Source of the DNA: an uncultured Planctomycetaceae bacterium
GTDB taxonomy: Bacteria > Planctomycetota > Planctomycetia > Pirellulales > Thermoguttaceae
Assembly: GCA_947307005.1 (NCBI GenBank)
Contig: CAMZHY010000002.1
Coordinates: forward strand, 1-37,464
DNA: 37,464 bases
Direction of reading: 5' to 3'
In this document: positions 9,714 to 16,425 of the stretch, piece after piece
Layout: the number at the start of each line of letters is the position of its first letter
How positions within the stretch are numbered: position 1 is the stretch's first letter
Translations under genes and position numbers: made by a program
Notes under the pieces: model-generated
The model's input: only the letters and a program-made list of their open reading frames with translations
Told to the model about the DNA's origin: nothing
The model's database searches: none

Positions 9714-11015
9714 TCACTTGGGCCGGCGGCGTTTGAGGAGTCGGCTCGTTGAGTCGGCGCGACGGTCTTCCTCCGGATCGGCGTCGCGAGAGAACGAATT
9801 AGGACGCGTCCGGTCGTCGTTGCGACGGCGGAGCGTCAGCGTTTCGCGACGCTCGAAGTCGCGAGGGGCGTCGTCGCGTGGATCGTCGCGCCGCGTCGTT
9901 TCCGGCTCGTCGTAGTCCGACGTTCTTCTGCGTCGCAGTCCAAGCGTCTCGCGGTTGGCGGACGGGGCGTCGCGCCGCGCGATTGGCTCTCTTGGGGGCG
10001 TTCTTCGGATCGGTTCCTCGCGTCGGGAGTCGTTAAAGGAAAAACGGAAGCGCGAAGCGAAACTCCCGCGTTCGCGCGGCGCCGCTTGACCGTAGTCGTC
10101 GTCTGTCGGCGAGGGCGTCGAACCGCGTCCGCCAAGCGTGATCACGTCTTCGGGCCATCGACGTTCCACCTCTTTGACGGCGCGCGCGACTCTTTCGCGA
10201 GCGTCTTCCGGCGAAAGACCGTGCGCTCTGCCGATTGTTTCGGCGTTGTCGCTCGCTTCGTGCGTGAAATAGAAGTGAATCGCCTCCGGATTGCATAAGA
10301 CTTCAATCGCGGAGCCCGAACAAAGAACGGAACCTCGATCGATCACATAGGCGCGTTCGGTGATTTTGAGCGTGTTTGCAATCGCATGGTCGTTGATAAT
10401 AATGGCGATTCCCGTATCGGCGAGTTCAAGGACGGCGCGTTGAATTTTGCTGATTGTTTCCGGGTCGCATGCAGCGAAAGGTTCGTCAAGCATGAGAATT
10501 TTCGGATTGCCGGCGATCGCGCGCGCAAATTCGAGACGCCGCCGTTCGCCGCCGGAGAGTCCTCCGGCGCCGCCGTTTCCGACGACGCGGTTGTGAATTG
10601 GACCTTTGACGGGATCTTCCCAAAGATCGTAGCGCTTCAGAATCTCTTCGCACATTGGGCGACGTTCGCGCCTTGGAATTCCGTAGAATTCGAGCGCGCC
10701 GTAGAGATTCTGCTCGACCGTCAACGCGCCGAAGAGGCTGTGTTCCTGCGGAAGATAACCAAGTCCCGCCTTGCAGCGTCGGGACATGGTCCAACGCGTA
10801 ACGTCTTGGCCGTCGAGTAAAATCGTGCCAGCCGTCGGTTTCGTAAGACCGCAGATCATGTGAAAACTGGTTGTCTTGCCCGCGCCGTTCGCGCCAAGAA
10901 GACCGATGATTTCTCCCGGATAAACTTTGATATCGACGTCGTGAACCGTCGTAACCTTACCGTAGCGCTTAGTGAGTCCCCTTGCCTCAAGCACCGGCTT
11001 GTCGCCTCTTGTCAT
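9714..11015 (-). CDS. lptB: LptB-like ABC transporter ATP-binding protein with Arg/Asp-rich C-terminal extension
   Basis: 433 aa. Walker A GANGAGKTT; signature LSGGERRRLEFARAIAGNPKILMLDEPFAACDP; LptB-like spacing. The final ~180 aa are a charged low-complexity tail. Confidence 0.8.
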   Translation of the reverse strand: MTRGDKPVLEARGLTKRYGKVTTVHDVDIKVYPGEIIGLLGANGAGKTTSFHMICGLTKPTAGTILLDGQDVTRWTMSRRCKAGLGYLPQEHSLFGALTVEQNLYGALEFYGIPRRERRPMCEEILKRYDLWEDPVKGPIHNRVVGNGGAGGLSGGERRRLEFARAIAGNPKILMLDEPFAACDPETISKIQRAVLELADTGIAIIINDHAIANTLKITERAYVIDRGSVLCSGSAIEVLCNPEAIHFYFTHEASDNAETIGRAHGLSPEDARERVARAVKEVERRWPEDVITLGGRGSTPSPTDDDYGQAAPRERGSFASRFRFSFNDSRREEPIRRTPPREPIARRDAPSANRETLGLRRRRTSDYDEPETTRRDDPRDDAPRDFERRETLTLRRRNDDRTRPNSFSRDADPEEDRRADSTSRLLKRRRPK

Positions 11016-11102: not shown

Positions 11103-12785
11103 TCAAGAATTGGATTCCGTCGCGTCGCCTTCGGTCGCTTCCTTGCTTTCGCGTTTCCATTTTGCCGTCGCAATAATCGAAAGAAGGAGCAGCGCCGCCG
11201 CGACGACGGTAAAGAACGCGAGCGCGTAACGCGCGACGACGTTTCCTTGATACTCGTAATACCCTTTCTCGACGTTTTTGATAAACCAGAAGACGATAAT
11301 GATCGTCATGTAGGGGAAAGAAACGTATTTCACGAGCTTAGGGACGAGATTGAGCGCGCGCGTTTGCGCCCCGCACTCCAATTCCGACCGAAACGCGGGA
11401 ACGCCCCAGACGAACGCGACAAGGAAGATCTGGAGAATGGCAAAGACAAACATGACGACTCCTGAAATCCAGAAGTCGCATATCTCTAGCGCCACAAGGT
11501 CTTTGGTGAACCAACAGACGAAAAACGTTCCTACAAGATTCGCGCACCCGACAATGAACGCGCTCGACTCCTTGCTTCGTTGAAAAACTTCTTGAAAGAG
11601 CGCGACCGTCGGTTGAAGCAGCGAGACGGACGTTGTGATCGCCGCCGTGAAGAGGAGCAGATAGAACGCCAGACCTACGAATTGTCCGCACTGGGTTTGC
11701 CCAAAGACATTCGCCATCGCGGAGAACCCAAGCGCGTAGGTTGAGTGAAAATTAACGCCCGCGTTTTGACCGAGGAACATGACGACGGGCGGAATCGTCA
11801 TGAGACCGCCTAGGACGACTTCGCAGAATTCGTTGATTGACGTCGAGGAGAGACTGGAAAGGGCGACGTCGTCTCGTTTGCGGAGGTAACTCGCGTAGGT
11901 CGTTATACAGCACCAACATAATGAAAGCGTAAAGAATATCTGCGCCGTTGCCGCGAGCCAGACGTCGGGATTCTTTAACGATTCCCAGAGCGTCGTTTGG
12001 CCGATGACGATTCCTCTTGAACTGAAAGCGTCGCGCGTTGGATTCCACATGAATCCCAACCCGTCGAGGAATCCGCGCCCTTCGATTCCCGTCGGATTGC
12101 CGAGCGTTACGACGCGAACGATAACGAGCAACGAACACGCTAAGACGAGCGGAGCGGCGAACTTGCATACCTTTTCGATTCCTCCGGCTATTCCGCGGCT
12201 GATGAGCAGCATATTGCCGAGCGCGCAGAAAACCGTCGCGAGAAGGAGCGGCGACGACGAGAGACGAAAGAGCGATCCGTCCGCGTATTTCCCGATCATG
12301 CGGTTAAAGAACTGCATGTATTCCTCGGGAGCGTCGAAACGTAAGCCCGGATCGACGTCGTTGAAAAAGGAAAAACCGAGACCGATCGGCTCAAACATTC
12401 CGCCGAGATATTGCAGCGCGTAAAGGACGCACCACGCTTCAATGAAGACGTAGTACATGCTGATGGCGAAAGGAATGATCGTCATCAGACCTCCGACGAT
12501 TCCCCAGCAACGTTTTCGACCGCTTGCGAGGTAAAACACCCCCATTTGCGACCGCGCTCCGTTGCGACCGCCGAAACGACCGAGCGCCCACTCGCTCGCC
12601 GCCAACGGAATTCCAACGAGAAGAAGCGAGATCAAATATGGGATCATGAACGCGCCGCCGCCGTTTAAAACGACTTGGCCCGGAAAACGGATAAAGTTGC
12701 CGAGTCCCACGGCGCTTCCCGCGACTGCGAGGACCACCCCGAGTCGCGATCCCCAGTGGTCGCGTTTTCTTGTCTGTCGCGTCAT
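11103..12785 (-). CDS. Sodium-dependent transporter, NSS/SNF family (copy 1)
   Basis: Start revised from 12887 to Met at 12785: MTRQTRKRDHWGSRLGVVLAVAGSAVGLGNFIRFPGQVVLNGGGAFMIPY, the conserved NSS TM1, aligned with the N-termini of copies 2 and 3. Confidence 0.93.
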   Translation of the reverse strand: MTRQTRKRDHWGSRLGVVLAVAGSAVGLGNFIRFPGQVVLNGGGAFMIPYLISLLLVGIPLAASEWALGRFGGRNGARSQMGVFYLASGRKRCWGIVGGLMTIIPFAISMYYVFIEAWCVLYALQYLGGMFEPIGLGFSFFNDVDPGLRFDAPEEYMQFFNRMIGKYADGSLFRLSSSPLLLATVFCALGNMLLISRGIAGGIEKVCKFAAPLVLACSLLVIVRVVTLGNPTGIEGRGFLDGLGFMWNPTRDAFSSRGIVIGQTTLWESLKNPDVWLAATAQIFFTLSLCWCCITTYASYLRKRDDVALSSLSSTSINEFCEVVLGGLMTIPPVVMFLGQNAGVNFHSTYALGFSAMANVFGQTQCGQFVGLAFYLLLFTAAITTSVSLLQPTVALFQEVFQRSKESSAFIVGCANLVGTFFVCWFTKDLVALEICDFWISGVVMFVFAILQIFLVAFVWGVPAFRSELECGAQTRALNLVPKLVKYVSFPYMTIIIVFWFIKNVEKGYYEYQGNVVARYALAFFTVVAAALLLLSIIATAKWKRESKEATEGDATESNS

Positions 12786-12814: not shown

Positions 12815-12952
12815 TTAACGTTCCGTCGATTCTTCGGGCGCGTCCGCGTCCTGCGTTTCTCGCGTTACGACGAGTTTGTAACAACACCAGCCAAAGAGTC
12901 CGATAACAATGGCGAGCGACGCCGTCATGCTAACCCAACCGCCCCACGTCAT
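12815..12952 (-). CDS. Small membrane protein, candidate NSS transporter small subunit (MetS-like)
   Basis: 45-aa ORF absent from the supplied track: MTWGGWVSMTASLAIVIGLFGWCCYKLVVTRETQDADAPEESTER*. Single hydrophobic helix with a charged C-terminus, ending 29 bp before the revised start of NSS copy 1 on the same strand. Confidence 0.7.
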   Translation of the reverse strand: MTWGGWVSMTASLAIVIGLFGWCCYKLVVTRETQDADAPEESTER

Positions 12953-13025
12953 GCGCGTTCTCCTGTTTCTTTACGTCGAAAGGCGACGTTCCTAGCGTAA
13001 ACTTACGAATTATCCTGAGCGTTTG

Positions 13026-14717
13026 TCAAGACCTTGAATTGTCTTCTTTTTCGGTCTGAATACCGTATCCGTCTGAAATTCCCTCGGCGCGCCATCTCCG
13101 TATTGTCACGACGGAAAGCGTGAAAAGGAACGCTAGCAGCAAGAGGAAAAATCCAATGGAAAGCTGCGCGACGTAGTCTTGCATTGTCGCGAGAACGCGT
13201 CCTTTGAGGTTTTTCGACGCCCAAAAAATGGCGATGACGACGAGGTAGGGGAAGGAGAGGTATTTTACCACGAAGGCGAGGAACGTCGGCGGTTTGATCT
13301 TTGATCCGAGCGCGATTTCTTCCCGGAGCTTTGCGGTTCCCCAGACGAACGCGGCGAGACCGGTCTGGAATATGGCGAAGAGGAAGGGCGCGAAGTTCGC
13401 AAACCAGAAGTCATACGTGTCGAGCGCCGTCAATCCCTTGGTAAACCAAATCACAATGAACGCGCCGACGAGATGAATCGCAGCTCCCAGCAAGACGCTC
13501 GCGCCCCGAGAGCATCGAAACGCCTCGCGGAAGAAAGCGACGACCGGCAGCACGAGAGACATGGAACTCGTGACGGACGCGGAGAAGAGGAGGAAGAAAA
13601 AGACGAATCCGCAGAGTTGCCCTAACGGCATGAGTTCGAAAACGTTCGGCAGGACGATGAACCCGAGCTGGAACGACGAACTGAAACCGTCCGCCGCCCT
13701 CGATCCGAGGAACATGATTGCGGGAGGAATCGCCATGAGACCGCCGAGAACGACTTCGCAGAATTCGTTTGTCGCCGTCGCGGAAAGACCCGAAAGCGCG
13801 ATATCGTCCTTCGGACGCACGTAGCTTGCGTAGGTGCAGACGGCGCAGATGCAGATCGACACGCTGTAGAAAATCTGCGCCGTCGCCGCCAGCCACGTTT
13901 CCGGATTGAGAAGCGACGTCCAGACGCTTGCGCGTCCAATAATTTCTCCCGACGCGTTATAGACGTCGCGCGTCGGGTTCCACATGAAGCCCAGACCGTC
14001 GAGGAAACTTTGTCCCGGACGACCCAGCGGATTGCCGAGCGTCGCGACGCGGATAATCATAATGAGCGCGCATAGAAGAATCAGGGGCGCCACGCGTTTG
14101 CTGAATTTTTCAATTCCTTTCGACACGCCGCGATAAACGAGAAGAAAATTGATTGCGACGCAGAAGATCGTCGTCGCCAGCAGCGGCGCGCCCGCGCGGG
14201 AGAATAGCGCGCCGTTTTGATTCGCGCCCGTCGTCGCGTTGAAAAATCGCTCGTACTCGTCGCCGCTTCCTAGACGCATTCCCGCGAAATCGCCGGACCC
14301 GAGCGTGAATCCCAATCCGATTGGCTCCAACATTCCGCCGAGATATTTGAGCGCGTAAAAAAGACACCACGCCTCGACGAAAATATAGTACATGTCAATC
14401 ACGAAAGGAACGCACATGCTCATGCCGCCGACGATACCCCAGCCTCGTTTGCGTCCGCTCGCGACGTAATACATCCCCAGCGGGGAATGATAGCCATGGC
14501 GTCCGGCGAAGCGCCCTAGCGCCCACTCGCTCATCGAAATGGGGATTGCGACGAGCAGCAGCGAAACGACGTAGGGAATCATGAACGCGCCGCCGCCGTA
14601 GTTGACGACCTGACCGGGGAATCGCAGAAAGTTGCCGAGTCCGACGGCGCTTCCCGCGACTGCGAGAACGACGCCGATTTGTGATCCCCAGTGTTCGTGT
14701 CGAGGCTTGTTGCGCAT
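13026..14717 (-). CDS. Sodium-dependent transporter, NSS/SNF family (copy 2)
   Basis: Start revised from 14897 to Met at 14717 (MRNKPRHEHWGSQIGVVLAVAGSAVGLGNFLRFPGQ); the longer start would overlap copy 3. Confidence 0.93.
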   Translation of the reverse strand: MRNKPRHEHWGSQIGVVLAVAGSAVGLGNFLRFPGQVVNYGGGAFMIPYVVSLLLVAIPISMSEWALGRFAGRHGYHSPLGMYYVASGRKRGWGIVGGMSMCVPFVIDMYYIFVEAWCLFYALKYLGGMLEPIGLGFTLGSGDFAGMRLGSGDEYERFFNATTGANQNGALFSRAGAPLLATTIFCVAINFLLVYRGVSKGIEKFSKRVAPLILLCALIMIIRVATLGNPLGRPGQSFLDGLGFMWNPTRDVYNASGEIIGRASVWTSLLNPETWLAATAQIFYSVSICICAVCTYASYVRPKDDIALSGLSATATNEFCEVVLGGLMAIPPAIMFLGSRAADGFSSSFQLGFIVLPNVFELMPLGQLCGFVFFFLLFSASVTSSMSLVLPVVAFFREAFRCSRGASVLLGAAIHLVGAFIVIWFTKGLTALDTYDFWFANFAPFLFAIFQTGLAAFVWGTAKLREEIALGSKIKPPTFLAFVVKYLSFPYLVVIAIFWASKNLKGRVLATMQDYVAQLSIGFFLLLLAFLFTLSVVTIRRWRAEGISDGYGIQTEKEDNSRS

Positions 14718-14760: not shown

Positions 14761-16425
14761 TTAGCGTTCAGTCGCGTCGGCGTCGGCGATTCGTCGCCAC
14801 CGTTTTGCGGCGCCCGTTGCGAGCGCAAGGGTCGCAATTCCAACGATCGACATGAAGACGAGCGAAATCTGCGCGACGGGACTGTTTGCGATTTCATGAA
14901 TCCGCGTTCCCATGTTTCGACAACTCCAGAAGAGAACGACGAGAATCATATAGGGAAACGAGACGTATTTAACGACGGTTACGAGGAAGAGGGGCGGTTT
15001 TATGCGCGAACCTCGCGCAATTTCCGAACGCAGCGCCGGCTCGCCCCAGACAAAACAGACGACGACCGTCTGAATAATCGCGGTTACGAGCGGTAGGAAG
15101 TTCGCGACCCAAAAGTCGAAGACGTCGAGCGCGCCTAGTTTTAGCGTATACCAGCAAATCACGAGCGTCCCGACGAGGTTGACCGTCGCCGCGACCGACG
15201 CGCTTCGTTCCCGCGTCCACCCTCGCGATTCTTGGAGAAGCGCGACCATCGGCTGGATCATCGAAACGGAGCTTGTCACGGCGGCGAGCAGGAGGAGGAA
15301 GAAGAAGAGGAATCCCCAGAATTGTCCGAACGGCATGAGACCGAAGACGTTCGGAAGAACGACGAATCCAAGCGCGAAAGAAGACGCAAAGCTTCCCGAC
15401 GCGCGCGCCCCGAGGAACATAATCGCCGGAGGAATCGACATGAGTCCGCCGAACCCAACCTCGCAGAACTCGTTCGTCGCCGTCGCGGCAAGACTCGAAA
15501 GCGCGACGTCGCCGCGCGGTTTGACGTAGCTTGCGTAAGTGCAGACCGCGCCGAGGCAGATCGAAACGCTGAAGAATATTTGCGACGTCGCCGCAAGCCA
15601 TACGTCGGGATTCGCGAGCGTCTCGCAGACGCCGACGCGAACAACCTCGCCCGACGCCGTCGCGACTTCGCGCGTCGGGTTCCACATGAATCCCAGTCCG
15701 TCGAGAAAGCTCCGGCCCGGGAGTCCCGTCGGATTGCCGAGCGTGATAACGCGGATAATGACCGCGATTGAACAGAGGAGAATGAGCGGCGCCGCCGCTT
15801 TACAGAAGCGTTCGATTCCTCGCGAGACTCCGCGATAGACGAGAAGGAAGTTGATTCCCGCGCACGCGAGCGTCGCAAAGAGCGCGGTCGAGGTTTTCAG
15901 CGAGAAGAGCGCGCCGTTCTTGCCAATTCCCACGAGCGAACCGAAAAAGTTTTCATATCCTTGAGCGTCGTCGAAGAACAGTCCCGGAGGCGAGCTGGGC
16001 GCGACGGAAAAACCAATTCCGAGCGGCGCGAGCGCTCCGCCGAGATATTGCGCCGCGTAGACGAGACACCACGCTTCAATGAAGACGTAGTACATCCCAA
16101 TGATAAAAGGCGCGACCGTCGCGAAAGACCCCATCGCGCCCCAAAACGCGCTGCGATTCGACGCCGAATAGTAGACGCCCGCGGGAGAATGATACCCATG
16201 GCGTCCTCCGCTCCGTCCTAGCGCCCATTCCGCCGTCGCGAGCGGAATCGCGACGACTAAGAGCGAGACGACGTAGGGAATCATGAACGCGCCGCCGCCG
16301 TTGCCGACGACTTGTCCCGGAAACCTCAAAAAGTTTCCAAGCCCGACGGCGCTCCCCGAGACGGCGAGAATCACGCCGAGCTGCGATCCCCATCGATCTT
16401 TTTTTCTTGCGTCGGTTGTCGTCAA
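14761..16425 (-). CDS. Sodium-dependent transporter, NSS/SNF family (copy 3)
   Basis: 554-aa ORF: MTTTDARKKDRWGSQLGVILAVSGSAVGLGNFLRFPGQVVGNGGGAFMIPYVVSLL. Confidence 0.95.
   Translation of the reverse strand: MTTTDARKKDRWGSQLGVILAVSGSAVGLGNFLRFPGQVVGNGGGAFMIPYVVSLLVVAIPLATAEWALGRSGGRHGYHSPAGVYYSASNRSAFWGAMGSFATVAPFIIGMYYVFIEAWCLVYAAQYLGGALAPLGIGFSVAPSSPPGLFFDDAQGYENFFGSLVGIGKNGALFSLKTSTALFATLACAGINFLLVYRGVSRGIERFCKAAAPLILLCSIAVIIRVITLGNPTGLPGRSFLDGLGFMWNPTREVATASGEVVRVGVCETLANPDVWLAATSQIFFSVSICLGAVCTYASYVKPRGDVALSSLAATATNEFCEVGFGGLMSIPPAIMFLGARASGSFASSFALGFVVLPNVFGLMPFGQFWGFLFFFLLLLAAVTSSVSMIQPMVALLQESRGWTRERSASVAATVNLVGTLVICWYTLKLGALDVFDFWVANFLPLVTAIIQTVVVCFVWGEPALRSEIARGSRIKPPLFLVTVVKYVSFPYMILVVLFWSCRNMGTRIHEIANSPVAQISLVFMSIVGIATLALATGAAKRWRRIADADATER

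Follow-up and report, generated by a model that had tools for sequence, protein, structure and literature searches.

Three NSS transporter genes lie in tandem in the window (the whole stretch of DNA that was analysed, 37,464 nt), and a short reading frame stands between two of them. The locus raises the question of whether this frame is a gene and, if so, which of the transporters its product serves. All four frames are on the minus strand, and the order of transcription is NSS3 (14761-16425, with an assumed TTG start), NSS2 (13026-14717), the small gene (12815-12952) and NSS1 (11103-12785). The three transporters are of the LeuT type: each matched PF00209 and showed the LeuT fold with the Na+ site residues retained, and the identities to LeuT were 34% (NSS1), 36% (NSS2) and 35% (NSS3). 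They have 12 TM segments, and their likeness to Aquifex LeuT includes TM12; the AlphaFold model of NSS2 (pLDDT 85) showed the LeuT fold with its last helix at residues 515-545. At the positions equivalent to LeuT 253, 254, 259 and 359 in the substrate site, NSS1, NSS2 and NSS3 carry F/Y/F, T/S/S, W/I/L and L/L/M, respectively, and their substrates therefore probably differ. Downstream of the cluster, an LptB-like ABC protein is encoded at 9714-11015 (minus strand); its C-terminal extension of ∼180 residues is rich in Arg, Asp and Glu.

The small frame starts with ATG (minus strand, 12952 to 12815), which is preceded at a distance of about 8 nt by a Shine-Dalgarno-like AGGAG (12960-12964). It is separated from the NSS2 stop by a spacer of 73 nt (12953-13025), and no terminator-like site was found when the minus strand of this spacer was scanned; the small gene would be cotranscribed with the NSS cluster. 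On the other side, the start of NSS1 was placed at the ATG at 12785 because the LeuT alignment begins just after that codon, and a longer GTG-initiated frame that overlaps the small frame is not needed. The sequence-only reading had described a 45-residue, single-helix membrane protein encoded at 12815-12952, 29 bp upstream of NSS copy 1 on the same strand. This description held: the frame is on the minus strand with the translation given, the gap to the NSS1 ATG is 29 nt, and a helix at residues 3-36 was predicted by AlphaFold.

The same reading had named loss of the frame in relatives, or a non-coding substitution pattern, as grounds against a gene, and neither was seen. When the small ORF was used in a tblastn search against 60 related genomes (mostly ruminant-gut and other metagenome assemblies labelled Thermoguttaceae or planctomycete), 18 other genomes of the same genus were matched (E 5e-21 to 8e-7), together with several genomes of the same family. 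The frame was thus kept in all 19 assessable genomes of the genus; the sole member in which it was not seen, G013, has a contig that stops inside the NSS gene and is not assessable. Compared with the nearest relative (G006) over a 31-codon core, the small gene showed six synonymous differences and one non-synonymous difference, with six of the seven at third codon positions, and omega was about 0.04, a sign of strong purifying selection. Five pairs pooled gave a pS of 0.55 and a pN of 0.08, which is the pattern of a coding sequence. The small ORF is a real, conserved coding gene, and its 45-residue membrane protein is missed by gene callers.

A profile iterated from the small ORF over small ORFs near NSS genes grew to 39 entries, with the consensus MTxGGWIxMTxSxGxVxGLFxWCCxK; a tail motif resembling HxHxxxDIDTxD was frequent in family members from other Planctomycetota. 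The profile matched 68 of 392 Planctomycetota genomes (E<=0.01), and an NSS gene was present in 136 of the 392 (E<=1e-20), about half of the NSS-bearing genomes being without a recognisable family member. At each of the 29 further loci that were inspected, the match closely followed an NSS gene of the same strand, starting between -4 and +134 nt relative to the NSS stop; in most of them the offset was -4, an ATGA overlap. Such an overlap is typical of translational coupling. Family matches 3' of NSS genes were also found on contigs labelled PVC group, Verrucomicrobia, BRC1 and UBP16. At one locus (L228, genome G326), the small gene after the NSS gene seems to be frame-shifted after ∼22 residues, by sequencing error or decay.

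These distributions bear on the possibility that the small membrane protein works on its own, for instance as a toxin-like or stress peptide, and neighbours NSS genes by chance. Its size and single helix would suit such a role, and nothing further speaks for it; all inspected homologs, from many families and several phyla, adjoin NSS genes, and some planctomycete NSS proteins lack a small gene beside them and instead end in a fused helix of this kind. A chance neighbourhood is accordingly most improbable. Among 204 NSS C-termini, the small-family profile detected the fused helix in L205 (...VILSAAILIIVTGLGWCFYKAI; E 5e-5) and L204 (E 0.002), and a C-terminal helix was found with the MetS profile in the NSS proteins of L180, L194, L189 and L208. 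Three further Planctomycetota NSS proteins (L206, L210 and L211) bear a C-terminal helix that is MetS-like or like the small protein.

Hardly more credible is a leader or coupling ORF that would control NSS1 through being translated, while its peptide had no function. A short ORF shortly before NSS1, whose own Shine-Dalgarno sequence is weak, is what such control would look like. However, purifying selection acts on the amino acid sequence, which is conserved phylum-wide, the small gene comes last, downstream of NSS, in most species, and the helix is also found as a fused part of NSS proteins.

The partner of the small protein was sought in the synteny of the genus, where the genes flanking the locus are constant, ABC-F on one side and lptB-like on the other. 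Four orders were observed: NSS-small (L095, L097, L103 and L105), NSS-NSS-small (L090, L091, L094, L098 and L109), small-NSS-NSS (L101, L102, L106, L108 and L110, with which L092 and L099, both cut after the first NSS gene, were grouped) and NSS-NSS-small-NSS (the window, L096 and L107). A quick NSS tree places duplications inside the genus, with NSS-small as the arrangement of the nearest lineages that have a single copy; the small gene likewise follows NSS in single-copy relatives both inside and outside the genus. Because those nearest lineages are NSS-small, the small gene is in its ancestral place relative to NSS2, and by synteny NSS2 is the positional equivalent of its ancestral partner.

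The sequence-only reading had instead proposed a specific partnership with NSS1, which the synteny did not uphold. A subunit dedicated to NSS1 would be in keeping with the interval of 29 nt, which leaves no room for another gene, and with the one genus lineage in which the small gene lies solely upstream (small-NSS-NSS). However, single-copy lineages in and outside the genus place it after NSS, and here it is NSS2 that precedes it; the lineages that are sister to the three copies show NSS-small; and a single small gene is retained at any NSS copy number. Dedication to NSS1 is thus quite unlikely. The observation from which the proposal had started, that just one of the three tandem transporters has the small ORF, is right as to position, since the cluster holds a single copy, but that copy sits between NSS2 and NSS1. 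Conservation of the ORF upstream of orthologous NSS genes, suggested as a check, was found as a linkage that is mostly downstream, with a solely upstream position in that one lineage.

Exactly one small gene was present per cluster in the genus, whether one, two or three NSS copies were there, and in the small-NSS-NSS lineage it was kept even though it is solely upstream of the NSS genes. One small gene whatever the copy number suggests a shared subunit, and the simplest reading of the gene orders is that the small protein is common to the NSS paralogs. In the window, it would most likely serve NSS2 first and may be common to NSS1 and NSS3. One contig labelled uncultured Ruminococcus (L035) carries an NSS protein that is identical over its C-terminal 476 residues to planctomycete NSS (L033 and L096), and this contig is probably misbinned.

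MetS is the small subunit of the methionine/alanine importer MetPS of Corynebacterium glutamicum. MetS and MetS-like NSS small subunits (NF033493/NF033494, PF16951) share with the small protein a length of ∼30-60 residues, one helix, a short N-terminus and a gene directly 3' of an NSS gene. The window small protein differs from them in scoring below the curated cut-offs, in having GGWxxM..S...V..L..WCxxK in place of the WGG/GGL core, and in its LeuT-type partners, between or before whose copies the gene may sit. When the small protein was compared with the Pfam and NCBIfam models, nothing exceeded a cut-off, and none of the small protein and 32 relatives reached one; the best of these 33 members against NF033493 gave E 0.059. 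PF16951 likewise gave no match above its cut-off in the 60 relatives, all of its matches there being below it. Two other hits to the small protein, TIGR02588 (E 0.016) and NF005999 (E 0.047), were rejected as hydrophobic chance matches far below their cut-offs. NF033493 and PF16951 gave no hit to the window small protein, and since membership calls for a score beyond the cut-off of the family model, it is not assigned to the curated MetS families.

Recognised MetS genes also occur in Planctomycetota, likewise downstream of NSS; the annotated MetS genes used for comparison were drawn from a plasmid collection. A planctomycete MetS (MTYGAWIMLVVGTLITLGGLSVCIGIALRHK) and the family member L157 (MTTGGWIIMLLSLSVIIGGFAWCLWRVFKST) aligned without gaps, and L157, which scored 20.3 bits against a curated MetS model with a cut-off of 25, is an intermediate matched by both the MetS and the small-family models. 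In hhalign, the small family and MetS were aligned over 29 ungapped columns with a probability of 90% and a score of 24.8, whereas 200 column shuffles reached at most 19.1 and 200 within-helix shuffles at most 20.9. Iteration from the MetS profile over a pool of NSS-adjacent ORFs collected all 65 family members and reached the window small protein in round 4 at E 7e-8, a value valid for this small and enriched pool alone; 0 or 1 of 420 envelope-shuffled decoys was collected.

These results can be set against a convergent origin, in which the protein is an NSS subunit but unrelated helices were recruited to the same place. The failure of the curated MetS models would be explained in this way, and a helix of 30 residues is low in information, with hydrophobicity common to both families. 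The ungapped register over 29 columns, the intermediate recognised by both models and the failure of the shuffled controls all argue for common descent, and convergence is unlikely. The small protein has detectable homology to MetS, a single helix within 30-60 residues and same-strand adjacency to NSS, and on these sequence grounds it is placed in a divergent branch of the wider MetS superfamily, outside the curated families. The proposal that it is a MetS-type NSS small subunit thus stood as regards NSS linkage, NSS-helix fusions and transitive homology to MetS, and fell short at the curated models; the suggested HMM comparison failed at those cut-offs and succeeded above shuffled controls in the profile-profile and iterative searches. 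Taken together, the small gene is, with a probability that we put at roughly 80%, a functional gene for an accessory subunit of LeuT-type NSS transporters, from a divergent MetS-superfamily branch that has no curated model. Counting against this reading are the missed curated cut-offs and the lack of a recognisable family member in about half of the NSS-bearing Planctomycetota genomes.

The AlphaFold prediction for the small protein was confident in the middle of the helix and low in the tail. Conservation along the helix was one-sided (G5, W6, M9, S12, V16, L19, C23 and K/R26; permutation p 0.001 at 100 degrees, with the peak near 105 degrees), and C23 was present in 56 of 56 family sequences. 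Such one-sidedness is expected of a helix that packs against a protein surface. Nothing meaningful was found when the PDB was searched with the small-family profile.

The fusions bear on the orientation of the helix, as do variants in which the product of the gene after NSS (L198, L203 and L237) has a likely signal peptide, then an ectodomain of ∼100 residues, and ends in a MetS-like helix with weak helix scores. Fusions and variants alike fit an N-terminus outside and a C-terminus inside, and we infer this topology from the positive-inside rule and TM counts made by eye. L199, L200 and L202 perhaps represent the same ectodomain-bearing variant. All 91 NSS proteins with a recognised partner extended past TM11 into TM12, and none of the 13 without TM12 had a partner, in a non-random sample; the simple hydropathy rule that was used put a few 11-TM proteins in the wrong class.

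The small protein is probably a small subunit of the neighbouring transporters, for which we infer both physical interaction and an effect on transport. It would cross the membrane once, the N-terminus being outside and the K/R-flanked tail cytoplasmic, and its conserved face (G5/W6/M9/S12/V16/L19/C23/K/R26) would pack onto the lipid-exposed side of a 12-TM transporter. The most likely site is near TM12, a helix present in partner transporters and absent from those with 11 TM segments. Bound there, the small protein would stabilise the transporter or adjust its transport. Since LeuT itself was purified and its structure solved many times with no second subunit, the LeuT fold cannot strictly depend on such a helix, and a stabilising or modulatory role for the small protein is more likely than an essential one.

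To our knowledge, there is no small subunit for LeuT. It is conceivable, though doubtful, that a small single-helix subunit, overlooked by gene callers and by structural studies, is the normal companion of LeuT-type 12-TM NSS transporters as a class, perhaps of LeuT too, and that one such subunit can be shared among paralogous transporters. In mammals, ACE2 and collectrin are single-pass partners of the NSS-fold SLC6 transporters B0AT1 and SIT1; the single-pass partner of an NSS-fold transporter and the ectodomain variants of Planctomycetota (L198, L203 and L237) recall this arrangement as an analogy of design only. Annotation routinely overlooks small membrane subunits. With the present protein, subunits of the MetS kind would reach the LeuT-type transporters, which have no known subunit and serve as the structural model of human neurotransmitter transporters; the function of such a helix can be tested directly in the naturally fused proteins and in the clusters where a single small gene accompanies up to three transporters. 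In the portions of the literature on NSS small subunits that were available, the MetPS work (doi 10.1021/bi801206t), as cited in PMC2807442 and PMC5105988, was all that was found.

Outside these groups, in Acetoanaerobium noterae, an unannotated ORF of 35 residues with a single helix (MTGAALGFLVITWGIVFSVVGISLKAILDSEKKKK), for which no match was found on comparison with NCBIfam, was observed 14 nt after a LeuT-like NSS gene (L131:3111-3218, plus strand).
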